A DNA stretch of 64,000 bases from NCBI GenBank assembly GCA_937928575.1, contig CALFWW010000046.1:1-64000 (forward strand), given 5' to 3'. A model generated the notes under the pieces. The model saw nothing but the letters and a program-made list of their open reading frames with translations, was not told where the DNA came from and did not search any database. This DNA is from an uncultured Saprospiraceae bacterium. Its GTDB lineage: Bacteria; Bacteroidota; Bacteroidia; Chitinophagales; Saprospiraceae. The position numbers and the translations under genes are program-made. Below, one piece after another: positions 5,161-29,409 of the stretch (the stretch's first letter is position 1; each line of letters begins with the position of its first letter).

Positions 5161-5589
5161 TGTTTTGTTTTTCGTTTAGTTGAAGCGAAGATAACGAAAA
5201 TGAACGGAATAGTTTATCTATAAAATTTAGCTTATCCACATGATTCAGAATAAAGTCATACTATCAACACTCAAAATTGAAATTTTAGAAAAAAAATTAC
5301 AGGCTATCAATACAATTACATCATATCCTATGGGTAGCATTTTTATCCCATAATAGTTGTCGTTCTTAAAATTTATTAGACTATTTCAGTCAATTTTTAA
5401 ACCAAATGCATGTCACAAAATCATCATCTTAAATACCTAATGTGCTTGTGTTTAGTGTCTTTTCATATAAGACTTTTGGCATATTAATTGGCTAACTATA
5501 TATAAAAACACACTATATTTTGAATTTGCTATAAATTCCTCCTACGATACTAAAGTAAATTCATTTAGAATAAATTTAAAGGTTTGAGC
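5161..5589. other. Divergent intergenic region upstream of the surface-protein island
   Basis: About 430 very AT-rich bases between the TerB-like gene (minus) and the first large adhesin (plus). A TATATTTTG around 5514 is close to a TAnnTTTG -7 element, but the spacing to the nearest upstream TTG (about 22 bases) is only marginally acceptable. No small gene was seen. Confidence 0.4.
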
Positions 5590-11073: not shown

Positions 11074-13047
11074 ATGTATTTAAATATAAAAATAGTAGGC
11101 AGTCTGTTGATAGCTGTATTCTCCATTGGTATCAATAACGCACAAAATAGTGTCAAGGTAGATCAATTGTATCAAGACCTCGCTTACAAGGAAACCATTA
11201 ATTTTTATGCTTCCAAAGATCAATTGAGTCTGGAGGATATGGAAAGAATTGCAAATAGTTACCGACTAAATCATGACACAGAAAACGCTGCATTGTGGTA
11301 TGGTCAAGTAATTGAGCAAAGTAGTGATCCGGTCAACCATCTCTATTATGCACAAGCACTTCAAAGTAATGGCAAATATGGAAAAGCTAAAAAACACTTC
11401 CTAAAATATAATGAATTGCTTGGTGATGATAATGATTTGCGTGGTGTGCAATTGGCAACAGCAATCGACAGAATGAATGAGTGGAAAAATGAAGAAGATA
11501 TTTTGCTACAACCAGAGACTAAGATTAATTCACCAAATTTAGACTTCAGCCCCTCTTATTACAAAGATGGGATTGTCTTTGTATCATCCAGAAAAACTTC
11601 CAACAAGAAAAAATACAAATGGACAGGGGAACATTTTATGAATCTCTTTTATGCGACAGCGGATGAAGACGGGAAATTATCAGAGGTGACTTCTTTTTCT
11701 AAAATGATTAATTCCAAATACCATGAAGGTCCTGTAGCTTTCAGTAAAAGCTATGACAAAATATTTTTTACCAGAAATGATCACGTAAAAGGAAAAGTAA
11801 GAACCAACAAAAAAGGGGTAATGAAATTGGGGATTTTCACTGCAATGAGTAATGGAGAAAATTGGACAGATCCAAAACCAGTATCCTTCAATACTACGGA
11901 GCATGAAGAGTGTCATCCTTCACTTTCAGCCGATGGATCTCATTTATATTTTGCATCTGATCGACCAGGCGGATTTGGTGGGATGGATATTTATGTTTCC
12001 ACTTTTGATGGAGGTAAATGGGGTACACCAACTAATTTAGGACCAACTATCAATACGCCCGGTAATGATGTGTTTCCATTTATTCATGACGATGGAACCT
12101 TGTATTTCGCCTCAGATGGTTGGGGAGGATTAGGTGGACTTGATATTTTTAAGTCTGCTCAAAATGAAGGCGCCCATTGGACGACATCTGAAAATTTAGG
12201 AACACCCTATAATTCCAGAAAAGATGATTTCGGTTTTGTAATGAACGTGTTAGGAACAGAAGGGTATCTAAACTCTTCTCGTGATGGAGGTAGTGGGAAA
12301 GACGATATTTATAGCTTCCAAAGAAATGTAAAAGGAATTGAAAAAGTTGAAGGAAAAGAGCACATCACAAAAAGTGAATTAGGCCCTAATGGAAATATTA
12401 CTATTTATCAATTTATCAATAATGATTTTCAAGGAACACCCAATGAAGTGCATTCTGCAATAAAGGCCATCCAAGAAAAAGTGGACCAAACAAATGATAA
12501 AGAAGTGGTGGTTGTAATAGGAAAAGATGATGCAGAATTGCCAAATATTGCAGCGCCAACAGAGCTAATTGTTGCTGAAAAAAAACCAGTAGAAGAGATG
12601 GTGGTTGAAGAAGCTCCGATGAAACATGTGATGAAAGAGGTTGAAGAAGTAGCTGAAACTTTCATCGTCAAAGAAGATTTAGCGATTGGGAAAACAATCC
12701 AGCTGAAAAATGTTTATCACGATTTTAATATTCATGAACCTAACAAAAAAGGTGAAAAAGAACTAGATAGATTGGTTGAGTTTATGAAAGAAAATCCATC
12801 AATGAAAATCGAATTGTCGTCTCACACAGATGCTCGGGGCAGAACGAGATACAATACATGGTTGTCTAGAAAAAGAGCAGAAGCATCAACCGCGTATATC
12901 GTAAATCAAGGGATCAAAGCGAGTAGAATTATCGCTAAAGGATATGGTGAAACCAAGCTTATTAATAAATGTGTAGATGGTGTTGAGTGTGATGAAAAAG
13001 AACACAAAATTAATCGACGAACGGAAATTAAAATCTTGAAATTATAG
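11074..13047 (+). CDS. OmpA family protein with TPR and PD40 beta-propeller (PorE/SprE-like architecture)
   Basis: A 657-residue exported protein. Its parts in order are: signal peptide; a helical TPR-like region (~30-130, with AALWYGQVIEQS and HLYYAQALQSNGKYGKAKKH); PD40/WD40-like propeller blades (~150-430, for example HPSLSADGSHLYFASDRPGG and FPFIHDDGTLYFASDGWGGL); a Glu/Val-rich linker (~490-535); and a C-terminal OmpA peptidoglycan-binding domain (~540-657). The last has LSSHTDARGRTRYN and LSRKRA, which carry the Asp and Arg that hold meso-diaminopimelate. The layout matches PorE-type proteins that tether the T9SS to the cell wall, but the carboxypeptidase-like domain between propeller and OmpA is not evident. 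Third gene of the adhesin-SprF-OmpA set. Confidence 0.88.
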   Translation: MYLNIKIVGSLLIAVFSIGINNAQNSVKVDQLYQDLAYKETINFYASKDQLSLEDMERIANSYRLNHDTENAALWYGQVIEQSSDPVNHLYYAQALQSNGKYGKAKKHFLKYNELLGDDNDLRGVQLATAIDRMNEWKNEEDILLQPETKINSPNLDFSPSYYKDGIVFVSSRKTSNKKKYKWTGEHFMNLFYATADEDGKLSEVTSFSKMINSKYHEGPVAFSKSYDKIFFTRNDHVKGKVRTNKKGVMKLGIFTAMSNGENWTDPKPVSFNTTEHEECHPSLSADGSHLYFASDRPGGFGGMDIYVSTFDGGKWGTPTNLGPTINTPGNDVFPFIHDDGTLYFASDGWGGLGGLDIFKSAQNEGAHWTTSENLGTPYNSRKDDFGFVMNVLGTEGYLNSSRDGGSGKDDIYSFQRNVKGIEKVEGKEHITKSELGPNGNITIYQFINNDFQGTPNEVHSAIKAIQEKVDQTNDKEVVVVIGKDDAELPNIAAPTELIVAEKKPVEEMVVEEAPMKHVMKEVEEVAETFIVKEDLAIGKTIQLKNVYHDFNIHEPNKKGEKELDRLVEFMKENPSMKIELSSHTDARGRTRYNTWLSRKRAEASTAYIVNQGIKASRIIAKGYGETKLINKCVDGVECDEKEHKINRRTEIKILKL

Positions 13048-13106: not shown

Positions 13107-16100
13107 GTGAAACGAGCTGCAGAAATATTGTCGGTTTTTAAAATGAAATTGTTTAGCTTAACTATCTTTAGTATCGCTGCTATTGGTAGTGGCTATGTTG
13201 TGCATGAAAATGTATTTTTGAACGATAACTTCAACCAACCAATTCCAAGTTTATCTACATCTACATCTACATCTACATCTACATCTACATCTACATCTAC
13301 ATCTACATCTACATCTGTGTCTTCGTCTGGAGTTGTGTTTAAGCATCTTTATCTGTCAGGAACTAATCAATCATTAGATCGAATTGACCCAGTAGCTACA
13401 AATAATACCATAACTCAGACAGCCACTTTTCCTGGATTCGTTACCAACGACCATTTTATTTTAGATCAATTTTTAAACTCAAATTTTGCAGGAAATAACG
13501 GTTCACAAAGTTATTTAAATAATTGGCAAGAAGAAGGAGAATTCGATGGTCCCTTTAGTGGAGTCGTGCAAACAGTCAACTCGGGAAATTGTCCAGCAGG
13601 AAATTGCTTAAGATTTGGTGGCTTTAATGTGAATCTGAATGGGGCTGCTGTAAGACGTATGGCTGACCTTTCTGGTGCTATCTCAGCAGATTTAAATATT
13701 GAATCATTCAGAACGGGCGTTGGGGGAACAAATGCTGCTGTTGATTTGGAAATTTCTAAAGATGGCGGAGCAACTTGGGTGACGCTTAAAACGTACTCCC
13801 TCAATTCATTTGATTCGAATGTTGTTTTGGATGCTTTTGATATCATTGACTACATTTCTCCAAACACACAAATTAGATTTATTGGTTCAGGAACAACTAG
13901 TTTGTTAAGTAGTTGGATTTATTTTGACAACATTCAGATTGGAATCAAAACACCTGAAGGTACCAACATGGTTAGTTTTTCTCAATTACCAGCATTGTGT
14001 GATGATTTGAATATTGTTGAAACTGATTTTATTACTGTCAACACCTACGTGAATGACTTGGCTAATTCGTTGTCTGCAAATCCTAATGTCATAGCTAAAC
14101 TCAGTTATGGTGACAACGATATAATCACTTTGACTAGCCCTATTTACGATAATTCTAGTAATTTAATTACATGGTCAGATATATTACCTACATCAAGTTT
14201 AATTCCTGCGGGAGCAGCAATAGAATTGGAGATTTCAACATCTGACCACACTCTTAATTTCGAAGTGCTCTATGATAGCAAAGAATTTCCTTCAAAAATA
14301 GAACTGCCAGTTTCTACTTTTATAGACGTAGTTGCTTATGAAATCTATGATGCTCCCTATCCAAATGGAAATATTTTAACTTCGACATCGGCAGGTACAA
14401 CAATATATTTGCGAGCTGAGGTGGAAGACCCATTTGGATATGCAGATATAACCGCTCTTCATTTTGATGATTCAAATAACTTATATCCTGGTGAGGCTGT
14501 AGATTCATTTGGCTGCACAAAAATTTACGAATATGCTTTAACAGCTCCCAATATAGATGGTCAATATACTACGAAGACAATCGCTTCTGAAGGATTTGAA
14601 GGTACGGTTGAAAGTAACCTGCCAAACGCAATTGATATCTGCATATATAACATAACAGTTCCGGTTTTTGATCAAGGGAGCTCTTTAGATCGATGTAAAG
14701 GAGAGGAGGTGTTAAATTTTAATGCAACCTCATCATTCAGTACAGATATACGATACCATTTAGATGCTGAGAGTTTGGCAGGAGGTGTTGAAATCGACTC
14801 AATATTCGGAAAGGTAGTTTTCAATCCAACCTATGACGGTACGACGGTCATTACTGCAACAGCGTACGGTTGTGGAGGATCACTCTCAAGCAATTTTATT
14901 ATAAATACTTTTAAAGACGTAGAAATTCCTGTTTTTGAATTAGGGACATCTTCAGAGCGATGTGTTGGTGCAAATGTTGAATTAATTTCAGCCTCAACTT
15001 TGTATAGCACTAGCACATTATATTCATTGGATTCCTTGAGTATCCTTGGCGGCGTAGAAATTGTGGAAGAAAATGGGAAAGTCAGTTTTCCATCGAGTTG
15101 GACAGGCAATACAATTGTGTATGCAACTGCGCAAGGTTGTAATGGACCTACGACTGCAGCGCATGTCATTACCACCAATGCGTCCGTTGTAGCACCAACG
15201 TTTGTGTTGGGATCCGATTCAGAAAATTGCTTTACAGCTCCGTTGGTTTATGAAGTAACTTCTCCAAATGATGATACAATTATATTTACCATCGATGCCA
15301 CAAGTGAAGCAGCTGGAGTTACGATTGATAGTCTAACCGGATATCTGGTATTTGAAATCAGCTATCCAGGTCCCATTACAATAAAGGCAATTGCGGAAGG
15401 TTGTAATGGTACTGCAATTGGTGTGCATGTTGTTAAATTATCAAATGATTGCGCACCAATTGCAGAGGATGACCAAATTTTGGTGGATGTCGGTGAGTCG
15501 GCATTTGAGGACGTTTTAGCAAATGATTTTGATATTAATAATGATATTGATCCTACAACATTGACAATTGTCCAACAACCAATTAATGGTACTGTTACTA
15601 TTGCAAATGGAGAAGTTATATTTAGTCCAATTGGAAATTTTGTAGGAAACGATGAATTTGTATACCAAATTTGTGATGAACAAGGGAATTGTGATAAGGC
15701 AACTGTCTATATCAACATCGTAGAAAATATACATGATCCGTGTGTTCAGGCCAATCAATTGCAAGAATTTTATCTTCCGTTTCCTGAAGAACAGCTATAC
15801 GCATCTTTTAGAGATGCGAGTTGTGATGCTGGAGCACAACATAGTGCAAACGTAAGGAGTGTAATCGCAATAAAAACACCTTATCCCACGATTTTTATCA
15901 AATATGATCATTGGGAGGATGGCTATGAGCCGGATTTGTCTCGGCCAATTCAGGCAAGTACAGAAATTTGGGGCGATGGAAATTTAACTAACGGGATTGC
16001 ACCAGGATATCCAAATGATATTTTGATTGCAGGGAGTTCCATTATTTTGGATAATACTTTTGATTATACACCGCCAAGAGATCCTTCCATAATCGTACAT

Positions 16101-19100
16101 GACGGAAAGGATAAAATAGTTTCTTCATCAGATATTACCATCTCAAAGATTTCTGGAGATGAACCTTTATTTTTATTTCAGGCAGCCAAAACATCGATTT
16201 ATGACACGGATCGTTTTGGAACATCTTTTACCATTCCTTTCGGTGAAGATCTTGGAAATGAGTTCCAATATACGGCACTTTTTATTCGTGCAATGAAGGA
16301 TGGAACCATTGTAAATGTTGACGTAGCAGGAGATGGTATCATTGATGCAAATGATCAAACTGCAATATTGAATGAGGGGGAAGTTTTATTTGTGGAAGGA
16401 GATCCTAATAATGTCAATCAGTTGAATGATCTCAAGTCTGGTGCTTTAGTGACGGCTTCAGAGAAAGTTGGTTTAGATGTTTTATTTGGAGGGTTGGATT
16501 GTTATGGAACCAGAAATATTAATTTGCAACCAGCAGCATTTTATTCCAGTACTTATTACACGCCAGTTCCAACTGTGAATGCTGATGCACCAGCTAAAAT
16601 TTATATGTACAATAAATATGATTACGACCTTACTATCAATTGGACAAGTAAAAACAATAGTGGTTCATTTGATATTGCTGCGGAATCTCCAACACCAGTA
16701 CTATTACCTAATTACGAAACAGCGTATAAATTTGAAAACCTAGGAGGTGAATCGTTTGTAGCAATTGAAGTAATTGATTCTGATAATAATGGGGCTTCTT
16801 ATGATTGGGCTTTTTCGTTGACAGGTGCGGAACAATTATCTGACTTCACCAGTATTGCTTGGGCACCTGGATCATCAGATGGCTCAAGAAATGATGGACC
16901 TATATGGGTAACCCCAGCTGCAAATACGACCTTGTACGTAAAGCTAGATGGCGATGTCACCTCAGGTAGTCCCAATGTCGCACCTTGTGGTCGTTCCTAT
17001 GACATCGCTCAATCAATTAATGAATTTGAAGCATACAGATTGTTAGATAATACCGACAATGATCAAAGCGGAATGGCATTGTTTACTTGTGATGGTACTA
17101 GTTTTTTTAGTGTCTTTGGGGAAGATCCTTCTACCGCAGTACTCGGAAGTCCGTCAATGGATGTAGGAACGACGATGGAGCCATTGTGTTCAGAACGTTT
17201 AATCTTGGCAAATGAAGATGATTATTCTACACCAGTAGCTACACCAATTGATATCCCTGTGCTCGACAATGATGATTCGTTTTTAGCAACCATTGATCCC
17301 AACAAGTTGTACACGAATGGTTTGCTTCAACCTTTAAATGGGACTACTTCAATTGATGCTTCTACGCATCGAATTATTTATACACCAAATCCCGGATGGG
17401 AAGGAATCGAGTATTTTGAATACGAAATTTGTTCGGTAGAAGATGATTACTTATGCGACGTTGCATTGGTTAGCGTTTATGTAGGTAATTGTAATTCAAA
17501 TGCTATTACGGTAGTCGCAAGTGGTTTTACCTATTACGAAAGTATTCCTGACAACGGAACTTATGATGGGGAACCAACAGTAGAAAATATTGATGTTAGC
17601 CTCTATTGGGATGAGAATTCAAATGGTGAAATTGATACGCCACAAGATACTTTGATACTTTCCACCACCTCTAATATTTCTGGATATTATGAATTCAACT
17701 TCAGATTGTTAGGTGACTTCATCATTCAAGTGGATGAGAATAATGGAGGATTTTCTCCTGGTACACTCAATACCGTTTCAGTAAGTTTTTCTTCCTTGAA
17801 TTCCTGTGAAAATGACTTTTATCTTGGATTGAGTCCTATTGTCAATCCAATAGACGACCTACTTACTACAGTTGTCAATTCCAATTTTTCAGGTAATGTC
17901 GTCAATAATGATTTAGGTGATATCAATATTTCATCTATCTCTATTGGTGAAATACATCCATCAAATGGTACAGTAATGATGAACTCAAACGGGATCATGG
18001 ACTATTCTCCCAATTTGGATTTTATTGGCTTAGACTCATTTAATTATCAAATCTGTTCCAATCTTGACCCAAATCTATGCGATTCAGCAATGGTTTATTT
18101 AAATGTACTTTGTCCTGTAGTAGATGGGGTTAACCAAATTACCGGAACCGTATTTTTTGACAACAATCAAGATGGAATACGTGACCTGTCTGATGACGGC
18201 TACCCATTTGTAAGTATAATGTTGTATATGGATGAAAATCAAGATGGATTACTAGATGCATCAGACACTTTTGTAAGTGCTACGTCGACGGATGAGAATG
18301 GCAACTATCAATTTTTAACGACACCAGTAGATTTTATATTGACTGTAGATAGAGCTTCAGTGCCCGGTATTTCTATGACAACCGACAACATTGAAATTGT
18401 TCATTTTTCAACATCTGGACAATCAGATTGTGTTAATAATTTTGGTCTATTCGATTGTGTAGCATCTTGTCCACCTGAGGCAATTGATGATTATGCGACA
18501 ACGGAGGTCAGTCAATCTATAACCATCGATATTTTAGCAAATGACTTTGATGCAAATGGTGATTTAGATGCAACTTCTGTTGCCATTCCTAATAACAGTC
18601 CTATTCCAAATGGGACACTATCTATTAATTCGATTGATGGTTCGATCACTTATCTACCAAATTCAACTTTTGCTGGCCAAGATATCTTTTATTATGAAGT
18701 ATGTGATCTATCGACACCGACAATACTATGTGATACCGCTGTGGTTTATATCAATGTCTCTTGTGCAATAATTCCAAATCAAAATCTTATTTCAGGTTAT
18801 GTTTTCGAAGATTTAAATGGAGACGGTGCATTTAATTTTGGAGAAAATGGCGGAGAAAACATAAAAGTATATCTGCATGAAGACATCAATCAAAATGGTT
18901 TGCTTGATGCCGATGAAGCACCTATCGATTCTATAAATTCAAGTATAAATGGAGCTTACCAATTTGAATTAACGCAATCCATTCCTCCTACCGTGATGGT
19001 TCAGCATATAAGTGTGGCTGAAGATGATGCAGAAGAGCGACTTTCAGATGGAGCAACTTTCCTTTTGAGTAATGACTTGGACTTTGGCGATGATGGGGAT

Positions 19101-22100
19101 CCGGATTTGGTAGGACTTCGTTTTAATAACATTGATATTCCGAATAATGCCACGATCTTAGATGTTTATCTGGAATTCGAAGCAAGAGGAAATACTAGTG
19201 GTGCAATCGATCTGTATATATATTGTGAAGCGACAGATAATTCAGCTATATTTTCTACAAATAATTATGATTTAAGTAACCGTGCCAGAACAAATACTGG
19301 CGTTCCTTGGTCAAATGTTGAGCCATGGATAGGAGATAATTTTTATCAAACACCTCAACTTTCTACTATCGTCCACGAAGTAATTTCAAGGCCAGGATGG
19401 AATCAAGAAAATGCCATTACTTTTTTGATTGAAGGTCGTCCTAGTCCTAGACGCGCGGAGTCTTTTGGTGGAGAAGGAGGTGCAGGTCCTAAATTAGTAA
19501 TCGAATATGAGGTGGATTCAGGGTTCGGCAACCATTTTATTACTAGTATCGAAGAAGGTACATTGCCTACAGGTACAGAAATGACCACATCTAACATCGC
19601 AGTTACGACGTTTAGTGATTTTGTTCAATCAGATTGTGGAAATAATTTTGGATATCAAAGTTGTCCAGGTGGTTGTAGTCCGATTGCTGCGGATGACTAC
19701 GCTTCAACCGAGCTGGCAACTGCTGTCACAATAGATGTTTTGGCAAATGATACAGACGCCGATTTCGATATCAACCCAGCATCTGTATTTATTCCGTCCA
19801 ATGGTCCGATACCCAATGGAAATGTAACGATTATGCCAGGTAGCGGAGTGATTGAATACGAGCCATATCCGATATTTACGGGCCTGGATTCATTTTATTA
19901 TGTTGTTTGTGATTATTCGACGCCAATCATTAAATGTGATACGGCAACTGTTTTTGTAAATGTTGAATGTGCAGATACACCAAATGAAAAAATTATTTCA
20001 GGATATGTATTCAATGATTTTAATGGAGATGGCAATCATTTTGCAAATGAAAATGGAACAGGGAATATCAAAGTATACCTACATGAAGATCTCAATCAAA
20101 ATGGAATATGGGATGCAGGTGACACAACAATCGATTCAATAATTTCAGATGCGAACGGATTTTATCAATTCTCAATGCCATTGACCAGTCCTACTCAAAG
20201 TTTTTTCAGAGATATAAGTGGTGGAAAAGATGATGCGGAAGAAAGTTTGGTTACTGGTGGCGTTTTAGTAGGTGGTACTTCAATGGGTTTGGGTCATGAT
20301 GGCGATTTACAAATGGTAGGGCTTCGATTTAATAACATTGATATTCCGTCCAACTCAAATATTCTGGATGTTTATCTTGAATTTTATGCAAGAGGATTTT
20401 CATGGTTGGCTACCGATCTTACCGTACATGGCGAGGATATAGATAACTCAATAGAATACGCCAGTTCCAACTTTAATATCACGAATCGAAATAAAACAGA
20501 TGCCAGTGTTCCATGGAATAATGTTCCAGTATGGTACGATAATAATTTTTATCAAACACCTAATTTATCACCAATTGTCCAAGAGATAATTTCCAGACCC
20601 GGCTGGACAGCAGGAAATAATATGTCAATGTTAATCGATGGTGGACCAGAAAGAAGAAGAGCAGAAACTTATGAAAGTACTGGAGGACCGCCAGCCAGAT
20701 TAGTTATAATCTATAAAGAAAGCACCTACGGAAATCATTTTATCACCAGTATTGATACCAACGGTTTGCCTGAAGGAACAGAAATGACAACCGATAACAA
20801 TGAAGTCGCGACATTCAGTGCTACCAACACTTCAGATTGTGGTAATAATTTTGGATACAATTACTCACATCTAAATCCTTTGGCTATTGGAGATATTAAT
20901 GCAACAGAATATAACAATCCAGTAGCAGGAAATGTCTTGACAAATGATCAGGCCGTTAGAGGTTTTGATATAGATACACAACCGTTTGATGTTTATGGAG
21001 GTAGTGTTGTCATCCATCAAAATGGAAATTATACATTCACTCCTCAACTTGATTACGTCGGTGAGGCAGGTTTTTCCTATCAAATCTGTGATAGTGTTCA
21101 CCCAAGCTTATGCGATTCTACTACTGTAATAATTGACATTATTGATTGTTTTTCAGTCAATCAAAATCAAGTGATTGGAATGGAGGATTGCTTTCTTCAT
21201 GAAAATATCTTCAAATTATCAGCCAATCTCTTGTCGAATGATCAAGATGTAAACGGAAGTAATTTGCAAATTAATACGACCCCGATCACCTATCCATCAA
21301 AAGGTGTTTTGACAATTAATAGTGATGGTACTTTCATTTACCAGCCAAATACAAATGCTCAAAAGGAAGATGAATTTTCTTATCAAGTTTGCAATGATCT
21401 CAATCCTCAAGCTTGCGATACAGTTACGGTGAATATCTTTCTAATTGATTTTACAAGCGAACCGAATATCTATGCAACGGACGATGCAAATATAGGAGCA
21501 ATAGGAGATACGCTTAGTGGCAATATCGTTGCGAATGACAACTTAACGAATGCAAACACATTCCTAGTTGACATCGTACCTATTGTCGCTCCTCAACATG
21601 GAAGTCTAACGCTTGATGCAACCGGAAACTACCAATACATCCCGGACCAAAACTATGTTGGCAATGATCAATTTTTGTACAAAGTTTGTGACAATATTTC
21701 TAATACAACTTGCGATACAGCAACCGTTTACTTGACCATCCTTGATGATAGAATTCATTTAGATTTTCGGGTAATGCTCCAAGGTGCCTTACATGGAAAT
21801 ACGGATACTTTAATGAGAGCGGATCTTGTAAATCAAAATTTGGTGCCTTTGGTTCAACCGTACTCTGTTGACTTTAATCCATTGTTCTCCAATAGATTGA
21901 CACATGGAAATGGAGGGCATGAAGTCACTACAAACGCTATACTGAGTGCCAATACCTCAACCAAAGATGCGATCGTTGATTGGGTTTTGATAGAGCTTCG
22001 AGACCCAGTAGATTCCGTTACAGTCATCAAATCAATATCCGCACTTGTTCAACGTGATGGTGACATAGTTGACGCCAGATCAGGAGGTAATCTATATGAA

Positions 22101-22577
22101 AAAGACTTAATTGGTCAGTTTTTTGTATGTATAAAACACAGAAACCATTTGGGAGCAATGACCGCTTCTCCAATTGTCATAAATGGAAAAAAAGCTACTG
22201 TTGATTTTACAACTTTGACCAGCAGCGAACTTTTTCACTTTGATGGCTATGATGGATTAGAACAAACTTCCGCAAATGGTTTAAACGCGCTTTGGGCAGG
22301 AAATGCCAATGCAGATACAAAGGTCAAGTACGACGGTATGCTAAATGACCAAATCATATTAGTAGGTGAGATTATCACATCCCCAGGTAATCCCGATTCA
22401 AACTTGAATTATAACAATACAATTGGATATTATCAAGGCGACATCAATATGGATGGCAAAACCAAGTACGATGGCGTATTGAACGATAGAATTATAATTC
22501 AATTTATCAACCTTACTTATCCAAATAATATCGGTTTATTAAATAACTATAACTTGTTAATAGAGCAAGTTAAGTAG
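13107..22577 (+). CDS. 3156-residue modular surface protein with Ser-Thr linker, cadherin-like and SdrD-B-like domains and a dockerin-like C-terminal module
   Basis: The start is a GTG; the ATG at 13143 is a real alternative and keeps the hydrophobic export segment (MKLFSLTIFSIAAIGSGYVV). Then come a Ser-Thr repeat linker (~49-70), a jelly-roll-like module, three Ig-like domains (~540-810), and a cadherin-like domain. A large module follows at ~885-1365 (hallmarks YDHWEDGYEPDLS and STEIWGDGN) that recalls modules in other large bacterial surface proteins. The rest alternates cadherin-like (ANDxDxNGD) and SdrD B-like (DxNxDG) domains. A 180-residue module containing VGLRFNNIDIP occurs twice. 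The last 275 residues (~2882-3156) match those of the next protein and hold two dockerin-like loops. No T9SS tail was recognised. Probably secreted and calcium-stiffened; the ligand is unknown. Confidence 0.82.
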   Translation: MKRAAEILSVFKMKLFSLTIFSIAAIGSGYVVHENVFLNDNFNQPIPSLSTSTSTSTSTSTSTSTSTSTSVSSSGVVFKHLYLSGTNQSLDRIDPVATNNTITQTATFPGFVTNDHFILDQFLNSNFAGNNGSQSYLNNWQEEGEFDGPFSGVVQTVNSGNCPAGNCLRFGGFNVNLNGAAVRRMADLSGAISADLNIESFRTGVGGTNAAVDLEISKDGGATWVTLKTYSLNSFDSNVVLDAFDIIDYISPNTQIRFIGSGTTSLLSSWIYFDNIQIGIKTPEGTNMVSFSQLPALCDDLNIVETDFITVNTYVNDLANSLSANPNVIAKLSYGDNDIITLTSPIYDNSSNLITWSDILPTSSLIPAGAAIELEISTSDHTLNFEVLYDSKEFPSKIELPVSTFIDVVAYEIYDAPYPNGNILTSTSAGTTIYLRAEVEDPFGYADITALHFDDSNNLYPGEAVDSFGCTKIYEYALTAPNIDGQYTTKTIASEGFEGTVESNLPNAIDICIYNITVPVFDQGSSLDRCKGEEVLNFNATSSFSTDIRYHLDAESLAGGVEIDSIFGKVVFNPTYDGTTVITATAYGCGGSLSSNFIINTFKDVEIPVFELGTSSERCVGANVELISASTLYSTSTLYSLDSLSILGGVEIVEENGKVSFPSSWTGNTIVYATAQGCNGPTTAAHVITTNASVVAPTFVLGSDSENCFTAPLVYEVTSPNDDTIIFTIDATSEAAGVTIDSLTGYLVFEISYPGPITIKAIAEGCNGTAIGVHVVKLSNDCAPIAEDDQILVDVGESAFEDVLANDFDINNDIDPTTLTIVQQPINGTVTIANGEVIFSPIGNFVGNDEFVYQICDEQGNCDKATVYINIVENIHDPCVQANQLQEFYLPFPEEQLYASFRDASCDAGAQHSANVRSVIAIKTPYPTIFIKYDHWEDGYEPDLSRPIQASTEIWGDGNLTNGIAPGYPNDILIAGSSIILDNTFDYTPPRDPSIIVHDGKDKIVSSSDITISKISGDEPLFLFQAAKTSIYDTDRFGTSFTIPFGEDLGNEFQYTALFIRAMKDGTIVNVDVAGDGIIDANDQTAILNEGEVLFVEGDPNNVNQLNDLKSGALVTASEKVGLDVLFGGLDCYGTRNINLQPAAFYSSTYYTPVPTVNADAPAKIYMYNKYDYDLTINWTSKNNSGSFDIAAESPTPVLLPNYETAYKFENLGGESFVAIEVIDSDNNGASYDWAFSLTGAEQLSDFTSIAWAPGSSDGSRNDGPIWVTPAANTTLYVKLDGDVTSGSPNVAPCGRSYDIAQSINEFEAYRLLDNTDNDQSGMALFTCDGTSFFSVFGEDPSTAVLGSPSMDVGTTMEPLCSERLILANEDDYSTPVATPIDIPVLDNDDSFLATIDPNKLYTNGLLQPLNGTTSIDASTHRIIYTPNPGWEGIEYFEYEICSVEDDYLCDVALVSVYVGNCNSNAITVVASGFTYYESIPDNGTYDGEPTVENIDVSLYWDENSNGEIDTPQDTLILSTTSNISGYYEFNFRLLGDFIIQVDENNGGFSPGTLNTVSVSFSSLNSCENDFYLGLSPIVNPIDDLLTTVVNSNFSGNVVNNDLGDINISSISIGEIHPSNGTVMMNSNGIMDYSPNLDFIGLDSFNYQICSNLDPNLCDSAMVYLNVLCPVVDGVNQITGTVFFDNNQDGIRDLSDDGYPFVSIMLYMDENQDGLLDASDTFVSATSTDENGNYQFLTTPVDFILTVDRASVPGISMTTDNIEIVHFSTSGQSDCVNNFGLFDCVASCPPEAIDDYATTEVSQSITIDILANDFDANGDLDATSVAIPNNSPIPNGTLSINSIDGSITYLPNSTFAGQDIFYYEVCDLSTPTILCDTAVVYINVSCAIIPNQNLISGYVFEDLNGDGAFNFGENGGENIKVYLHEDINQNGLLDADEAPIDSINSSINGAYQFELTQSIPPTVMVQHISVAEDDAEERLSDGATFLLSNDLDFGDDGDPDLVGLRFNNIDIPNNATILDVYLEFEARGNTSGAIDLYIYCEATDNSAIFSTNNYDLSNRARTNTGVPWSNVEPWIGDNFYQTPQLSTIVHEVISRPGWNQENAITFLIEGRPSPRRAESFGGEGGAGPKLVIEYEVDSGFGNHFITSIEEGTLPTGTEMTTSNIAVTTFSDFVQSDCGNNFGYQSCPGGCSPIAADDYASTELATAVTIDVLANDTDADFDINPASVFIPSNGPIPNGNVTIMPGSGVIEYEPYPIFTGLDSFYYVVCDYSTPIIKCDTATVFVNVECADTPNEKIISGYVFNDFNGDGNHFANENGTGNIKVYLHEDLNQNGIWDAGDTTIDSIISDANGFYQFSMPLTSPTQSFFRDISGGKDDAEESLVTGGVLVGGTSMGLGHDGDLQMVGLRFNNIDIPSNSNILDVYLEFYARGFSWLATDLTVHGEDIDNSIEYASSNFNITNRNKTDASVPWNNVPVWYDNNFYQTPNLSPIVQEIISRPGWTAGNNMSMLIDGGPERRRAETYESTGGPPARLVIIYKESTYGNHFITSIDTNGLPEGTEMTTDNNEVATFSATNTSDCGNNFGYNYSHLNPLAIGDINATEYNNPVAGNVLTNDQAVRGFDIDTQPFDVYGGSVVIHQNGNYTFTPQLDYVGEAGFSYQICDSVHPSLCDSTTVIIDIIDCFSVNQNQVIGMEDCFLHENIFKLSANLLSNDQDVNGSNLQINTTPITYPSKGVLTINSDGTFIYQPNTNAQKEDEFSYQVCNDLNPQACDTVTVNIFLIDFTSEPNIYATDDANIGAIGDTLSGNIVANDNLTNANTFLVDIVPIVAPQHGSLTLDATGNYQYIPDQNYVGNDQFLYKVCDNISNTTCDTATVYLTILDDRIHLDFRVMLQGALHGNTDTLMRADLVNQNLVPLVQPYSVDFNPLFSNRLTHGNGGHEVTTNAILSANTSTKDAIVDWVLIELRDPVDSVTVIKSISALVQRDGDIVDARSGGNLYEKDLIGQFFVCIKHRNHLGAMTASPIVINGKKATVDFTTLTSSELFHFDGYDGLEQTSANGLNALWAGNANADTKVKYDGMLNDQIILVGEIITSPGNPDSNLNYNNTIGYYQGDINMDGKTKYDGVLNDRIIIQFINLTYPNNIGLLNNYNLLIEQVK
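13253..13316 (+). repeat. Hexanucleotide microsatellite (ATCTAC)n coding Ser-Thr repeats
   Basis: Nearly eleven perfect copies of a 6-bp unit in 64 bases, translated as alternating Ser and Thr just after the export signal of the giant protein. Slipped-strand changes of one unit add or remove two residues and never shift the frame, so this tract can tune linker length rather than switch expression. Confidence 0.95.
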
Positions 22578-22682
22578 CAATATATTTTACACCTTAATTA
22601 CATAAAAGCTCTTCTATAATTTACCCTCGTTTAATTAATTCAATCGTTGAAAAATTAATAGAAAAAATTTAATTAAAACATT

Positions 22683-25600
22683 ATGAAAGTTTTTAAGACG
22701 CTTATTTTATTTTTATTCTCAATGGCTGGCTTCTTCAATGCTCAAGGTCAAGATATCGATTTTAATGTTCGATACAATGGAGTAGCCAATGTCTATGAAG
22801 TTTATGCCAGACCAACATTTACAGATCCATTTTACTTCGTTGGAGGTGGTAGTCAAGTAACTGTTTTATTACCATCATCTATTGGAGATACCCCAATTGC
22901 CGTGACGCCAATAAATGGAGGTTTGTGGTCCGATAACTCCCAACTTTATGCCCCATCTGCTGATCCCGCTCATGATTTTCATGGCATCGCAACGAATGGA
23001 GCACCCGTAGCTTTCGTAGCTGGAGTTGAATTGTTACTTTATACATTCGTTTTACCTGATGGTTGTGTGTCCGAAATTAGATTGTTTGAGAATGGTTCAG
23101 ATCCAGCTTCATCGGATCCAGGTATGAATGGAGGTGATTTTGAAATGTTTTTTGCAAATGTGTTTGATCCATTTACCAATGATTGGAATTCCAATTACGT
23201 AAATGGTGGACTTGTATGTCCAAATGCACCACTTGTTTTGCCTAATCCAATTACAATCTCGCAAGGAAGTACAGCGAATCAATGTATGCCGATTTTAGAT
23301 CTCAATCCATTGGATGCATTTACCGCAACTTTATGTAATGGAAGCCCTGCAAATGGGACAACCACTTTAAATGTAACAGACTATACACTTTGCTTAGAAT
23401 ATACACCAAGTGGTAACTTTACAGGACAAGATGATATTTGTATCATTGTTTGCGATATGGCAAATTTATGTGATACGGTTTCAGTTCCAGTAACTGTTTT
23501 GCCAGCTTTAGAAAATTGTACAGATCAGACACCACCAATCGTAATTGCAACACCTATTACAGTCGCACAAGATTCAACAACGACCGTGTGTACTAATATT
23601 TTAGACCATAATGTAGGAGATAGTTTTACCGCTTTACTTTGCGGAGGTACGCCATTAAATGGAAGTGTTACAACGACGGTTATTGCCGATGTTTTATGTA
23701 TTGAATATACACCGAATACAGGTTTCACAGGGACAGATGATCTGTGTATACAAGTTTGTGATCCACTTAATAATTGTGATTTCGTCAATATTCCAGTATC
23801 AGTAATTGCAACACCAGTTGCTGCAGATGTAGCTCAGAACCCAGTATTAGTAATGCCACCTTTGGTAACGCAAGAAGATATAACGCATACGATTTGCGGT
23901 CCTATTATCGATGCAAATATAACAGATGCACATACGGTAACAATATGTGGTCAAGGAAACAATGGGACAGCAACGGCAACAGTTGACAATGCAGGTCACG
24001 AGTTATGTTTGACTTATGATCCAAATCCTAATTTTGCTGGTAGAGATAGTGTTTGTGTAGAAATTTGTGATCAGGCTTCACTTTGTTATTCTCTAATGGT
24101 CCCAGTTGAAGTCACTACCGCTAATGATGCGCCAATAGCAGTGAATGATGTAAATTTAACGCAAATTGAAACGGCTGTCAGCGGTGTAGTTTTGACAAAT
24201 GATTTTGATGTGGAAGGTCATAATTTGACCATCAGTACCACCCCTTTAAATGTCATGAATGGTACCGCTGTCATTGATGCAGCAGGAAACTATACTTTTA
24301 CACCAAATAATGGATTCGTTGGAGATGCTTCTTTTGAATACGAAATTTGTGATGATGGTTGCCCTTCAAGATGTGCTATCGCATTGGTCGTTATTTCTGT
24401 TTTTGATAATGTCGATCCTAATAATAACAATATAGTTGCAATACCTGATAATTACGGAATGTTTAGCGATAATGTTTTAATTTCTAATCTTGTCGCAAAC
24501 GATTATGATCCAGATGGCGATAATATTATTATTAACACGACTCCAATTACAAATCCAACAAATGGTTTGGTTGTGATAAATCCAGATGGAACATTTACCT
24601 ATACACCAAACGCAGGATATTTTGGAACAGATACCTTTGAATACTTAATATGCGACGATGGTTCTCCTGTTGCTTGTGATCAAGCTTTGGTTACGATCAA
24701 TATATTTGAATCTACCAATACGAATAGTACATTTGCAGTTGATGATGCAACTGCTGGAGAAATTAATAATTTGCAAGCTGGTAATGTATTGACCAATGAT
24801 TATGATCCAGAAGGAGACAACATCTTGGTAAACACAACTCCAGTTGTAAACGTAACAAACGGTACACTTACCTTGAATGCGAATGGTACTTATACTTATC
24901 AGCCAAATACAGGATTTATTGGAAATGATTTTTTCGTTTATGAAATCTGTGATGATGGATCACCTGTAGCATGTGATATGGCAACGGTATACATCGCTGT
25001 ACTCGATTCAAAAGACACACCTATTGTCATCACAAATCCGATAACAGTTGATATGGATGATGTGGTAAGTATTTGTGCACCCATTATCGATCCTAATGCT
25101 GGAGATACTTTTGTATTGACCCCGTGTGCTGGCTCACCAGCAAATGGAAGTGTAAATGTAGGTCTGGTAAATGGAAATGTTTGTGTAGACTACACGCCTA
25201 ATATCGGATATGTAGGTACAGATGAGTATTGTGTGATCGTATGTGATCAAACCAACAGATGTGATACTGCAATATTTCCAATTACCGTTGTTCCTCCAGT
25301 ACAACCTGCAACTTTAGCGGATGCACCGGATGCGATTATCACGCCAATAACGGTTGCGCAAGATTCTAGTGCTTATGTATGTTCCACCATTTTAGATGGA
25401 AATGCGGGAGAAACTTTTACGGCATCTTTATGCAATGGAACTCCTGCCAATGGAGCAGTGAATATCAGTTTTTCAGGAAATGAATACTGTATTGAATATA
25501 CACCAAATACTGGATATGCTGGAACTGATCATCTTTGTCTTATTATTTGTGATGCGGGAGGAGATTGTGATAACATCATAGTTCCGGTATCTGTAGTGCC

Positions 25601-27632
25601 AACACCACAAGTAGACGCGATACCTCAAAATCCAATTCTTGTGATGCCGCCGGTGGTTACTTACGAAGATGTAAACGGAAATGCTTGCGGTACAATCATT
25701 GACGCAAACGTTTCAGATACACATACCGTCTCTATCTGTGGTGCAGCTGCAAATGGAGTTGCAACCGCAACAGTAGACAATGCTACTAATAGTTTATGTG
25801 TCGATTACGATCCTAATTCTAATTTCATTGGTTCAGATGAAGTTTGTGTGGAAGTATGTGATCAGAGTGGTTTGTGCTATAACATGTTAGTTCCAATTGA
25901 AGTGATCCCAGTAAACGATCCTCCAATTGCAATTGATGATATCAACAATACACAAGTCAACATCCCTGTTGGCGGAAATGTATTGACTAATGATTCTGAT
26001 CCAGAAGGAGATAATTTAACAGTAACTACCACCGTATTAAATCCGATGAATGGTACCGTAACTATGGATCCATTTGGTGTATATACTTTCACACCTGCCC
26101 CAGGATTTATTGGTACTGGATCATTTGAATATGAAGTTTGTGACGATGGAAATCCAATAGAATGTGATACTGCATTGGTGACAATTGAAGTAATTGACGT
26201 TACCAATCCAAACAATAATGGGGTATTAGGTGTGCCTGATCATTTTACAACAGAAGATGATTCTCCACTTACTGCTGATGTGTTGGCCAATGATTCTGAC
26301 CCTGATGGAGATAATCTAACAATAAATACAACACCTGTTACAATTCCAGCGAATGGGACATTGGTAATCAACCCAGATGGTACTTTTAATTATGTACCAG
26401 TGCTCGGAGTGTATGGTGTTCAGACGTTTAGTTATCAAGTTTGTGATGATGGGACACCTCAAGTATGTGATATTGTTCCTGTAACGATTACTGTTCTTGA
26501 AGGGGATAATACAAACAGTTTGTTTGCCACAGATGATTTTTATATCGGAGATGAAGATGAAACGATTACAGGAAATTTAGTCCTCAATGATAATGATCCA
26601 GAAAATGGAGTCTTATCTGTGAATACAACGCCAGTGGTAGCTCCAACAAATGGTACCCTTACTTTAAATCCAAATGGTACTTTTACGTATGTACCTAATC
26701 CGGACTTTACTGGAAATGATCAATTCGTGTATACCGTGTGTGATGATGGTACACCTACCGCATGCGATGAAGCCACCGTTTACATCACCATCTTAAATGT
26801 TTCAACAGAATTAAGACTAAAAGTAATGTTGCAAGGTGCATTGTATGGAACGACAGACAATTTGATGAGATCGGATTTAGTAACGCAAAATTTAGTGCCA
26901 CTAGCTCAACCTTATGATCCTGCAACAGAACCAGCTTTTGCACAACGTTTCAACCATGTTATTGGTGGAAATGAAGTTACAACTGACGCCGTATTGAATG
27001 CCAACGCAGGCACATCAGATGCAATTGTGGATTGGGTCTTTGTTGAGTTAAGGGATGAGACAGATTCAATTACGGTAATACGTACACTTTCTGCATTGGT
27101 ACAACGAGATGGTGATGTTGTGAATGCTGCTGATGGAGGAGTAATTTATGTGGATAGTTTACCGACTAATTTCTTCGTCGTAGTCAAACACAGAAATCAC
27201 TTAGGGGCGATGACTGCAAGTCCAGTTGTTAGCGTCGCTAAGGTTTCAGCATTTGATTTTTCCGCTGCAAATGCTGCAAGATTGTACCATACAGCAACAG
27301 GATATGACGGAGCTGAACAAGTTACTTACGGAGGTCACCAAGCATTATGGGCTGGTAATTCCAACGCCGACGGAAAGGTGAAGTATGATGGTACAACCAA
27401 TGATCGAATCATTGTTAATGCGAATGTAATTTTAGATCCAGGTAATACTTCGAATACATTGAACTTCAATAATGCAATCGATTATTATCTAGGGGATGTG
27501 AATCTGGATGGAAAAGCGAAATACGACGGAATCAATAACGATAGAATCTTATTGCAATCGGGTGTATTAACTTACCCACTTAACACAGCATTCTTAAATA
27601 ACTACGATTTAATGATCGAGCAAGTTAAGTAA
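22683..27632 (+). CDS. 1649-residue repetitive surface protein: shared N-module, twelve Cys-bearing cadherin-like domains, dockerin-like C-terminal module
   Basis: Signal peptide (MKVFKTLILFLFSMAGFFNAQ) followed by the module shared with the proteins at 5590 and 27748 (~22-180; hallmarks GGGSQVTVLLP and HDFHGIATNGAP). Residues ~181-1374 are twelve cadherin/Big-like domains. Six use the pattern ITVAQDS...GTDDLCIQVCD and six the VLTNDxDPEGDNL...FEYxICDDG pattern. They form two consecutive six-domain blocks of the same order and almost the same length (~598 and ~596 residues). Conserved Cys pairs suggest disulfides, fitting an extracellular site. The C-terminal 275 residues match those of the upstream giant, with two GxxNxDxKxKYDGxxNDRI loops at ~1556 and ~1602. 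No T9SS tail is seen. It lies 105 bases after the giant's stop and ends at a strong terminator. Confidence 0.85.
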   Translation: MKVFKTLILFLFSMAGFFNAQGQDIDFNVRYNGVANVYEVYARPTFTDPFYFVGGGSQVTVLLPSSIGDTPIAVTPINGGLWSDNSQLYAPSADPAHDFHGIATNGAPVAFVAGVELLLYTFVLPDGCVSEIRLFENGSDPASSDPGMNGGDFEMFFANVFDPFTNDWNSNYVNGGLVCPNAPLVLPNPITISQGSTANQCMPILDLNPLDAFTATLCNGSPANGTTTLNVTDYTLCLEYTPSGNFTGQDDICIIVCDMANLCDTVSVPVTVLPALENCTDQTPPIVIATPITVAQDSTTTVCTNILDHNVGDSFTALLCGGTPLNGSVTTTVIADVLCIEYTPNTGFTGTDDLCIQVCDPLNNCDFVNIPVSVIATPVAADVAQNPVLVMPPLVTQEDITHTICGPIIDANITDAHTVTICGQGNNGTATATVDNAGHELCLTYDPNPNFAGRDSVCVEICDQASLCYSLMVPVEVTTANDAPIAVNDVNLTQIETAVSGVVLTNDFDVEGHNLTISTTPLNVMNGTAVIDAAGNYTFTPNNGFVGDASFEYEICDDGCPSRCAIALVVISVFDNVDPNNNNIVAIPDNYGMFSDNVLISNLVANDYDPDGDNIIINTTPITNPTNGLVVINPDGTFTYTPNAGYFGTDTFEYLICDDGSPVACDQALVTINIFESTNTNSTFAVDDATAGEINNLQAGNVLTNDYDPEGDNILVNTTPVVNVTNGTLTLNANGTYTYQPNTGFIGNDFFVYEICDDGSPVACDMATVYIAVLDSKDTPIVITNPITVDMDDVVSICAPIIDPNAGDTFVLTPCAGSPANGSVNVGLVNGNVCVDYTPNIGYVGTDEYCVIVCDQTNRCDTAIFPITVVPPVQPATLADAPDAIITPITVAQDSSAYVCSTILDGNAGETFTASLCNGTPANGAVNISFSGNEYCIEYTPNTGYAGTDHLCLIICDAGGDCDNIIVPVSVVPTPQVDAIPQNPILVMPPVVTYEDVNGNACGTIIDANVSDTHTVSICGAAANGVATATVDNATNSLCVDYDPNSNFIGSDEVCVEVCDQSGLCYNMLVPIEVIPVNDPPIAIDDINNTQVNIPVGGNVLTNDSDPEGDNLTVTTTVLNPMNGTVTMDPFGVYTFTPAPGFIGTGSFEYEVCDDGNPIECDTALVTIEVIDVTNPNNNGVLGVPDHFTTEDDSPLTADVLANDSDPDGDNLTINTTPVTIPANGTLVINPDGTFNYVPVLGVYGVQTFSYQVCDDGTPQVCDIVPVTITVLEGDNTNSLFATDDFYIGDEDETITGNLVLNDNDPENGVLSVNTTPVVAPTNGTLTLNPNGTFTYVPNPDFTGNDQFVYTVCDDGTPTACDEATVYITILNVSTELRLKVMLQGALYGTTDNLMRSDLVTQNLVPLAQPYDPATEPAFAQRFNHVIGGNEVTTDAVLNANAGTSDAIVDWVFVELRDETDSITVIRTLSALVQRDGDVVNAADGGVIYVDSLPTNFFVVVKHRNHLGAMTASPVVSVAKVSAFDFSAANAARLYHTATGYDGAEQVTYGGHQALWAGNSNADGKVKYDGTTNDRIIVNANVILDPGNTSNTLNFNNAIDYYLGDVNLDGKAKYDGINNDRILLQSGVLTYPLNTAFLNNYDLMIEQVK

Positions 27633-27689: not shown

Positions 27690-27747
27690 GAAAACGAATT
27701 TGATGAAGGCTTAAAATCTGGCATCAAATTGCTTATAATATTTGTCT

Positions 27748-29409
27748 ATGAGAATTTATATTTCAATTTATTTTGCCCTTCTTTTATTTGGTTGTTGTCT
27801 TGATTTACATGCACAACAAGTAAATATCAGATTGCAATTCAACGAAACAAGTAATTTGTATGAAGTTCATGCAATTCCTGATTTTGATAATGACATTTAT
27901 TTTGTTGGGGGTGGTTCTCAGATTTCAGTCCTACTACCACAAGATTTAGCAGATGTGGCTTTGCAAATCAACTCAGTAAATGGAGGTGTCTGGACAGACA
28001 ACTCTAAAGTATTTGCTCCAGTTGATAATCATATCTACGACTTTCACGGAATTGCTACGAATGGTGGTATGGTTAATTTTGAAATTGCAAATCCACTTTT
28101 ATTATTTACTTTTGAATTACCTGAGGGAATTTGTAGAAGCGATGTTAGATTGTATGAAAATATTTCTGATATTAATGACAAAGCGGCAGGGATGAACAAT
28201 TCCGATTTCAAAAACTTCTTCGCCAATGTCTTCGAGCCTTTCAAAAATAATTATGCAATCAATGAGCATGTGTTAAATACTGCATGTGCGGCTGCGCCTG
28301 TTATAAATTCTGCAGCATTGGAAGTACAACAAGATAAAACGGGTAATATTTGTTTGCCAATAGAAGATCTAAATGAAGGAGATTCTTTTACGGTGACAAT
28401 TTGCGAAGATGTGAGTTCGTCTTTGAATGGTACATCAGTAGCATCTGTTACTGGAAATACGATGTGTTTAGAATATATTCCAAATGCTGGATATATTGGA
28501 CCGGATCAAGTTTGTGTAGAAGTATGTGATCAAACAGGACTTTGTAACAATGCTTTTGTTGCGATTAATGTAGTTCCAGAAATTATTTATTCGACACTTT
28601 CTGCAACATCAGGAACTTGTGAGACCAATTTGAATTGGACCATCCTACAACCTGCTGAATTTGCTTCATTTGAATTGGAACGAAGTCTGGATGGTGTGAA
28701 TTTTACCTCAATCGGTGCATTCGAATCTGTTAATCAAACCAATGATTTGCAATTTACCTATACGGATGAGCAGGTGATGGAAGATTATTTTTATCGATTA
28801 AAGTTAGTTTTCAACAATGAAGAAGCGCAATATTCAGCCATTGTATTTACGACTGCAGATTGTGAAGATCCTACTTTTTACGCGACTATTGAAGCGGAAG
28901 CAAATTTTTGTGAAAACAGAATTCAATGGAATATCTTGTCTCCAAGTGAAGTTACTGGATATGAATTGGAGCGTAGCTCAGATGGGATTGCTTTCGAATT
29001 ATTGAAAGCTTTCCAATCTTCAGATATCAATTCCTACATAGATAGTGAAACCAAAGGGGATCATTATTATCGATTGAAATTAAATACCAACGATGGCACA
29101 TCTATTTATACCAACAACGTGTTTGTAAATACGAATTGTGAAATCAAAGCAGGTGATTTTGTCCTATATCCAAATCCTGCGAGTCAACATACTTCAGTTG
29201 TCACCATCAAGTTTTTCTCAGAATCTGAAAAGTTAAACTTGATTTTGACAGATGCATTAGGTAGAGTAGTGAGACGATTAAATGTGGAAACGAATTTTGG
29301 TGTCAATACGATCAAATTAGATATTTCTAAATTGGCTCCAGCAACTTACTTCGTAACACTTGAAGGAAAAGAAGTAATGACTAAGTCATTTGTTAAGTTT
29401 TTAGAATAA
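27748..29409 (+). CDS. Secreted protein with shared N-module and type A T9SS sorting domain
   Basis: About 553 residues. The ATG at 27748 is preferred over the TTG six bases before it. Signal peptide MRIYISIYFALLLFGCCLDL, cut near HAQQ. The shared module follows (~24-180; GGGSQISVLLP, YDFHGIATNGGM). Then come one Cys-bearing cadherin-like domain (~185-280), two FN3-like domains that begin alike (LNWTILQPAEFASFELERSL and IQWNILSPSEVTGYELERSS), and a C-terminal type A sorting domain (~475-553) with FVLYPNPASQ and the ending KSFVKFLE. Family knowledge: type A domains are cleaved by PorU and the cargo is attached to the surface through A-LPS or released. It combines the island's N-module with a canonical tail, supporting T9SS export for the family. 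Confidence 0.9.
   Translation: MRIYISIYFALLLFGCCLDLHAQQVNIRLQFNETSNLYEVHAIPDFDNDIYFVGGGSQISVLLPQDLADVALQINSVNGGVWTDNSKVFAPVDNHIYDFHGIATNGGMVNFEIANPLLLFTFELPEGICRSDVRLYENISDINDKAAGMNNSDFKNFFANVFEPFKNNYAINEHVLNTACAAAPVINSAALEVQQDKTGNICLPIEDLNEGDSFTVTICEDVSSSLNGTSVASVTGNTMCLEYIPNAGYIGPDQVCVEVCDQTGLCNNAFVAINVVPEIIYSTLSATSGTCETNLNWTILQPAEFASFELERSLDGVNFTSIGAFESVNQTNDLQFTYTDEQVMEDYFYRLKLVFNNEEAQYSAIVFTTADCEDPTFYATIEAEANFCENRIQWNILSPSEVTGYELERSSDGIAFELLKAFQSSDINSYIDSETKGDHYYRLKLNTNDGTSIYTNNVFVNTNCEIKAGDFVLYPNPASQHTSVVTIKFFSESEKLNLILTDALGRVVRRLNVETNFGVNTIKLDISKLAPATYFVTLEGKEVMTKSFVKFLE

Follow-up and report, generated by a model that had tools for sequence, protein, structure and literature searches.

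We analysed a 275-residue C-terminal module shared by two giant adhesin-like proteins that are encoded in a stretch of 64,000 nucleotides (the window) from an uncultured Saprospiraceae bacterium (GenBank assembly GCA_937928575.1, contig CALFWW010000046.1, positions 1 to 64,000, forward strand). The predicted structures and the gene neighbourhood suggested that the module is rather likely to be an X-dockerin-like plug that fits into cohesin-like sockets; some of these would be anchored by sorting tails of the type IX secretion system (T9SS). The candidate partner, an N-terminal domain with a predicted cohesin fold, occurs in three proteins of the same window and was overlooked by the initial annotation, which had been made from the sequence alone. 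We use the labels "X-dockerin-like" and "cohesin-like" and do not speak of members, because the predicted folds agree with those families and the sequence and loop length do not.

The open reading frames 13107-22577 (3156 residues) and 22683-27632 (1649 residues) were both present on the forward strand as initially annotated. Their last 275 residues (21750-22574 and 26805-27629, respectively) share 161 of 274 aligned residues (59% identity, E 4e-118), which confirmed that both proteins end in one homologous module. No further copy was found in the 5.35-Mb genome of the window at E <= 0.01. The parts upstream of the modules are adhesin-like repeats of the Big_9 and cadherin types, with SdrD_B repeats in the longer protein alone. 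Each module carries two GxxNxD...KYDG..ND loop units spaced by 46 residues; the initially described form GxxNxDxKxKYDGxxNDRI, a pair in each protein, was found again, with NDQI in place of NDRI in the first loop of the 3156-residue protein. A tandem duplication of the 46-residue unit makes up the final 92 residues of each module. Inside one module, 19/46 and 20/46 residues are identical between the units (z 12.0 and 9.7 against shuffles), and such internal duplication was detected with z > 3 in 82 of 84 family members. In the 1649-residue protein, module residues 1-183 (26805-27353) make up a beta-rich X-like part, which is followed by a first calcium-type loop (residues 185-200, 27357-27404) with a helix at 200-209, and by a second one (residues 231-246, 27495-27542) with a helix at 246-255. 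The two loops of the 3156-residue protein were placed at 22302-22349 and 22440-22487 by the module alignment and the conserved loop columns.

The module represents a large family without a name. Relatives turned up in 20 of the 60 related genomes searched (E <= 1e-4) and in 40 of 296 genomes sampled across Bacteroidota (the phylum set; E <= 1e-6), with at least 42 matches in genome G004, at least 42 in G006 and 33 in G047. A scan of genome contigs, for which the best 80 of 154 relatives were used, yielded 79 loci (L031-L109) titled Saprospiraceae, Flavobacterium, Spirosoma, Runella, Winogradskyella or other Bacteroidota, one of them (L040) titled "bacterium" alone. For the module alignment of 84 rows, 82 of the 85 references from these loci were combined with the two window copies, leaving out a duplicate (L033), two internal modules (L056 and L105) and 14 references of genome-search loci. 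Internal modules followed by D-rich repeats (TSP3-like by eye) were seen in a few Saprospiraceae metagenome-assembled genomes (L056, L104, L105, L106 and L189-L191). The ligand positions of the loops are strongly conserved over the 84 rows, with N/D185 in 83, N/D187 in 68, D/N189 in 81 and D/E200 in 84 for the first loop, and D231 in 84, N/D233 in 83, D/N235 in 83 and D/E246 in 84 for the second. Within the X-like part, residues 129-132 read H-R-N/S-H, and both histidines and the arginine are invariant in 84/84 rows. The profile search that the initial annotation had proposed, run on Pfam and NCBIfam with both modules, both proteins and the 84-row alignment, gave no fitting family for the module, and a sequence search of PDB gave nothing usable. 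The best PDB profile match, LpxD (E 0.025), extends over 50 residues and was regarded as a chance hit.

The module was then modelled with AlphaFold2 from 84 sequences. The model reached a predicted local distance difference test score (pLDDT) of 97.0 and a predicted template modelling score (pTM) of 0.93, and it places a helix behind each loop. As compared by VIA-align, the first eight matches to this model were all X-dockerin chains (4wi0, 3kcp, 4u3s, 4fl4, 5m0y, 2b59, 5g5d and 5k39) with Z from 8.6 to 7.5, and the next row had Z 3.9. The root-mean-square deviation was 3.4-4.0 over 146-152 aligned residues, which cover the X part as well as the dockerin part. Six of the eight PDB entries are titled as type II cohesin-dockerin or XDoc complexes; the other two, 3kcp and 4fl4, are fragments of scaffoldins, and their aligned stretch (residues 158-310/311) is presumably their X-dockerin. 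The predicted model thus has the X-module plus dockerin fold of type II X-dockerins, a shared fold that shows no function, and the module has the duplicated loop-helix unit with acidic loop ligands of dockerins.

The relation to dockerins could also be followed in the family itself. Pfam Dockerin_1 gave one match among the 84 relatives (E 0.057). In the tails of seven distant members (G003:C73:137728; C81, C78 and C1 of G047; C13, C37 and C39 of G006) it scored above the Pfam cut-off, from 40.5 to 22.9 bits, and its match coincides in part with the module match or comes right after it in the same frame. By Pfam's rule, therefore, the loop part of the module family includes dockerins; the window copies themselves do not qualify as Dockerin_1. 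Two canonical 12-residue calcium loops were present in 12 of 141 family tails, with a shuffle mean of 0.08, and the loop units are shorter in distant members; the modules at the G006 and G047 loci examined (L010, L013, L026 and L028) are short-loop forms. The early impression of "paired dockerin-like loops" is supported by the X-dockerin model, the conserved ligand positions and these seven members.

A second domain family was recognised at the N-terminus of the 1649-residue protein (the 22683 protein, proteins being named here by their start). Its N-terminal domain of 160 residues (22746-23225) is common to two further proteins encoded on the same strand: the 1469-residue 5584 protein (5584-9993), with the domain at 5656-6135 and 52% identity, and the 555-residue 27742 protein (27742-29409), with the domain at 27814-28284 and 49% identity. 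No fourth copy was detected in the genome at E <= 0.01, and the domain was not found in the 3156-residue protein (13107-22577). The three proteins are alike at the N-terminus and end differently, in a type B tail (5584), the module (22683) and a type A tail (27742). Because of these shared starts with different ends, and because the domain often lies in the gene behind a module gene, its identity as a cohesin was put down as a guess before its structure model was known. The domain alignment combined 38 of 41 copies with the three from the window (two L033 duplicates and one diverged L047 copy were dropped), and the AlphaFold2 model showed pLDDT 94.7 and pTM 0.90. Rows 1-21 of VIA-align were all cohesins with Z from 8.9 to 7.5, the cohesin chain within a matched complex being assigned by title, length and aligned range. 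Foldseek likewise placed cohesins at ranks 1, 2, 4, 5, 6 and 8, with CBM3 chains also among the matches; a sequence search of PDB gave nothing usable. A VIA-align Z near 8 is possible for common arrangements, so the weight lies on the two separate predictions, which name both halves of one known complex. The domain begins within the first 80 residues of its frame in 52 of 54 distinct copies. One 1664-residue frame in a related genome (G016:C67:45493-47592) carries three cohesin-like domains and looks scaffold-like.

We next looked at the linkage of the two families. Among 86 distinct module frames in L031-L109, 80 had at least 1.2 kb of downstream DNA, and in 39 of these 80 a same-strand cohesin-like domain begins 93-600 nt after the stop of the module. 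The linkage was strongest in the closest loci (L031-L053, 23/24; the rest, 16/56). Three loci whose downstream gene looks by eye like a diverged copy (L064, L094 and L098) and one that passed one of two scans (L075) were not counted as linked. On the upstream side the test has little power, as the 3-kb flank there is mostly occupied by the module gene itself. Domain and module share one frame in at least 5 of the 86 frames, many of which are cut at the locus start. At genome level, the domain was found in 7 of the 60 related genomes, all within the 20 that have the module (hypergeometric P 2e-4, with genomes that are not independent), and in 2 of the 296 phylum-set genomes, both module-bearing. 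Moreover, of 27 domain copies from eight genomes, 23 have a listed module no more than 20 kb away. At L047-L052 the gene behind the module gene is about a bare domain of 193-220 residues with no sorting tail, and a second domain gene follows in the locus; at L107 the bare-domain gene comes second, after a domain gene with a tail-like end.

The anchoring of the candidate sockets was examined with NCBIfam. The 5584 protein ends in a T9SS type B sorting domain (about 9739-9981; TIGR04131, 65.2 bits) and the 27742 protein in a type A one (about 29164-29397; TIGR04183, 31.8 bits against a cut-off of 23). For the 3156- and 1649-residue proteins no T9SS tail model was among the matches, nor was one listed for both modules and their 84 relatives; the release used was not checked for a type C model. 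The initial view that both proteins lack a recognisable tail while their neighbours have one was therefore upheld. Behind the type B gene lie, on the same strand, a PorP/SprF family gene (10069-11016; TIGR03519, 255.3 bits against a cut-off of 90.55) and a gene for a PorE-like, OmpA-like outer-membrane protein (11074-13047; NF053607 412 and NF052230 319.6 bits, below the cut-offs of 620 and 600). PorP/SprF family proteins are the usual partners of type B substrates. Passages of PMC9143113 describe the surface retention of type B proteins as believed to depend on PorP-like proteins, in some cases together with PorE-like proteins, and that of type A proteins as believed to depend on linkage to anionic lipopolysaccharide (A-LPS). 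In other genomes, 30 complete proteins with the cohesin-like domain next to modules were scanned, leaving out L060 (with residues given as unknown) and open-ended frames. At E <= 0.001, a type A tail was found on 11/30 by TIGR04183 and on 12/30 by PF18962, and the putative sorting domain CVP-CTERM (NF058574) on 5/30. One of the 30 has a Dockerin_1 match.

Taken together, the observations argue for a plug-and-socket arrangement: two domain families, loop residues that are conserved in the module, a predicted fold for each family, sorting tails and linked genes. In this model, the beta-rich X-like part would carry the duplicated calcium-loop-helix part, whose loops would bind calcium and whose helices would bind the cohesin-like socket, possibly with some partner specificity. 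The socket would be the N-terminal domain of the 5584, 22683 and 27742 proteins, and the tails of the 5584 protein (type B, accompanied by PorP-like and PorE-like proteins of its own) and of the 27742 protein (type A) would present it outside the cell. The 1649-residue protein, which would present a socket at the N-terminal end and a plug at the C-terminal end, may serve as a two-headed adaptor. In the simplest reading, gene order would mirror the order of assembly: the plug of adhesin 13107 would enter the adaptor 22683, and the plug of the adaptor would enter 27742 with its socket and type A tail, while 5584 would offer an alternative anchored socket. The plug-only proteins might be exported either by T9SS reading the module itself or by travelling with a tailed partner. 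Of the roles that the initial annotation had offered for the module, that of a domain for surface retention or assembly would explain the findings best. We are more tentative, at somewhat less than even odds, about the wider picture, in which a T9SS-coupled fastening system of Bacteroidota, for which no sequence relation to the known system could be detected, would build ordered surface fibres from giant proteins, with gene order following tip, adaptor and anchor and with tailless proteins displayed via tailed sockets.

Several results weigh against the plug-and-socket model. On the side of linkage, no domain was detected directly behind 41 of the 80 module genes, and the cohesin-like domain was not found in 13 of the 20 module-bearing relatives (E <= 1e-4) or in 38 of the 40 module-bearing phylum-set genomes (E <= 1e-6). 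The module-rich genomes G006 and G047 yielded no match to the cohesin-like domain and none to Pfam cohesins. As to the module, Foldseek gave no E below 0.001 in spite of listing several of the VIA-align chains, and the window proteins have no Pfam Dockerin_1 match. The loops of the window modules span 16 residues from first to last acidic position; a dockerin loop is of EF-hand type and has 12 (D1, N/D3, D/N5, D12). As to the domain, the first non-cohesin row in VIA-align, a GH20 enzyme, follows closely with Z 7.3, Foldseek again gave no E-value below 0.001, and six copies gave no Pfam Cohesin match. In the Foldseek matches the cohesin fold stands close to CBM3 and other jelly rolls; the cohesin and CBM3 folds are related. 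In profile-profile comparison (hhalign), the module tail reached 5% with 13 dockerins of these genomes and the domain 0.4% with 34 Pfam-type cohesins, where unrelated pairs gave 0.08 to 2.1%. In view of these values we make no claim of sequence homology to cohesins or dockerins; the domain has the jelly-roll fold of cohesins in its predicted model, without a Pfam or profile match. As to anchoring, at most 17 of the 30 neighbour proteins carry a recognised sorting tail, and seven are bare domains in frames of 193-220 residues. In addition, the ends of five internal-module proteins and a 22-residue extension in one Winogradskyella protein gave no NCBIfam match at E <= 0.01.

The position of the module bears on an alternative that we consider unlikely, though better placed than the two that follow, namely that the module belongs to a so far undescribed class of C-terminal T9SS sorting domains, which the translocon or a shuttle would recognise, its X-dockerin-like shape being incidental or of use to the shuttle. 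The initial annotation had raised a similar idea, that of an unrecognised T9SS signal. Of the 85 distinct proteins of L031-L109 that end in a stop, 81 have the module at most five residues from that stop. The module has a conserved end, E-Q-L-P, with P in 77 of 84 rows. Among the three window proteins with one type of N-terminal domain, it takes the place of a tail. According to PMC10202324, a type B signal may have to be longer than 200 residues, which would also fit the size of such a signal, and the T9SS-substrate C-terminal domain of mirolase (8qb1_C) appeared at VIA-align rank 15 for the module, but with a Z of 3.5. On the other hand, the remaining four modules are followed by 22 residues (two) or 170-176 residues (two), and two more lie in open-ended frames that run on. 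The ends of the five internal-module proteins, as said, match no tail model, and the C-terminal residues of the module are predicted to be ordered (pLDDT 95). SprA was found in 40/40 module-bearing genomes versus 228/296 overall (P 1.2e-5), which would favour a sorting role; the link vanishes at genus level (36/36 versus 136/140, P 0.30). Being significant by genome and not by genus, this co-occurrence was not relied on as support for T9SS dependence.

The CBM3 chains among the Foldseek matches of the domain, together with the many modules that have no domain nearby, would suit a less probable view, in which the N-terminal domain would be a jelly roll that binds carbohydrates or another ligand, the module is an independent folding cap, and the two are neighbours only through shared adhesin clusters. 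We regard this as improbable, since the first 21 rows of the domain are cohesins and the first eight rows of the module are X-dockerins, the halves of one known complex, and since a position immediately behind the module gene is more specific than membership of one cluster.

Ordinary cohesins and dockerins do occur elsewhere in the genome of the window (G000), with 31 Pfam Cohesin and 18 Dockerin_1 matches (E <= 0.001) on contigs C118, C129, C36, C37, C75, C140 and C154 and none on the contig of the window. For 13 of the 18 dockerins, a cohesin follows in the same frame about 400 bp further on, a tandem pattern that is also seen in relatives such as G001, and some frames hold several cohesins (for example C36, 3430 residues, six; C118, 2277 residues, four). 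The organism therefore probably uses the cohesin-dockerin principle in other proteins too. That the module docks on these Pfam-type cohesins, and not on the neighbouring N-terminal domains, is very improbable: the matches exist, but most of the dockerins have a cohesin in their own frame, the at least 42 modules of G006 and the 33 of G047 occur without a Pfam cohesin, and the gene linkage favours the neighbouring domain.

A few further features were noted in the window. The 44049 protein also ends in a type B tail (56.5 bits). Near the N-terminus of the 3156-residue protein, residues about 49-70 form a long run of Ser-Thr dipeptides, and the DNA repeat behind it could be a hypermutable tract. 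On the reverse strand, 3829-4401 encodes a pentapeptide-repeat protein like the Qnr and HetL families, with all matches far below the cut-offs.

These results give a candidate function and a likely partner to a module that has no name and occurs in 40 of the 296 sampled Bacteroidota genomes. If the plug-and-socket model is true, cohesin-dockerin assembly would reach beyond cellulosomes to the adhesin fibres of T9SS bacteria, there would be a reason why some huge secreted proteins have no sorting tail, and protein engineering would gain new plug-socket pairs.

Among the literature matches listed, none describes such a cohesin/dockerin-like pair with T9SS tails, and searches with the motif strings of the module gave no relevant paper. 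Compared with the T9SS tails of types A, B and C (TIGR04183, TIGR04131 and the type C tail of ChiA), the module is similar in being C-terminal, in standing in the place of a tail and in being seen here only in Bacteroidota, but it matches no tail model, has a two-domain X-dockerin-like predicted fold and can be internal. CVP-CTERM is a tail of the candidate partner, not of the module. Compared with the cohesins (PF00963; 2xdh from Archaeoglobus, 2vo8 and 2jh2 from Clostridium perfringens), the N-terminal domain has the same predicted jelly-roll fold, a linkage to a dockerin-like module and possible tandem occurrence, whereas it gives no sequence or profile match and stands at the N-terminus of adhesin-like, often T9SS-tailed proteins. 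The module differs from the type II X-dockerin of CipA/ScaA of Clostridium thermocellum (2b59, 5k39, 5g5d and 3kcp) in its length of 275 versus about 155 residues, in its 46-residue units with 16-residue loops, in an identity of 13-18%, in the missing Dockerin_1 match of the window copies, and in being carried by adhesin-like proteins of T9SS bacteria and not by scaffoldins or cellulases. The two share the same predicted X plus dockerin fold, the C-terminal position, and the duplicated loop-helix units with acidic loop ligands. A further point in common is the candidate partner of cohesin fold that is encoded nearby, often with a surface tail. The parallel is a close one, with the plug on the long protein and the candidate socket on a neighbour that would often be anchored.

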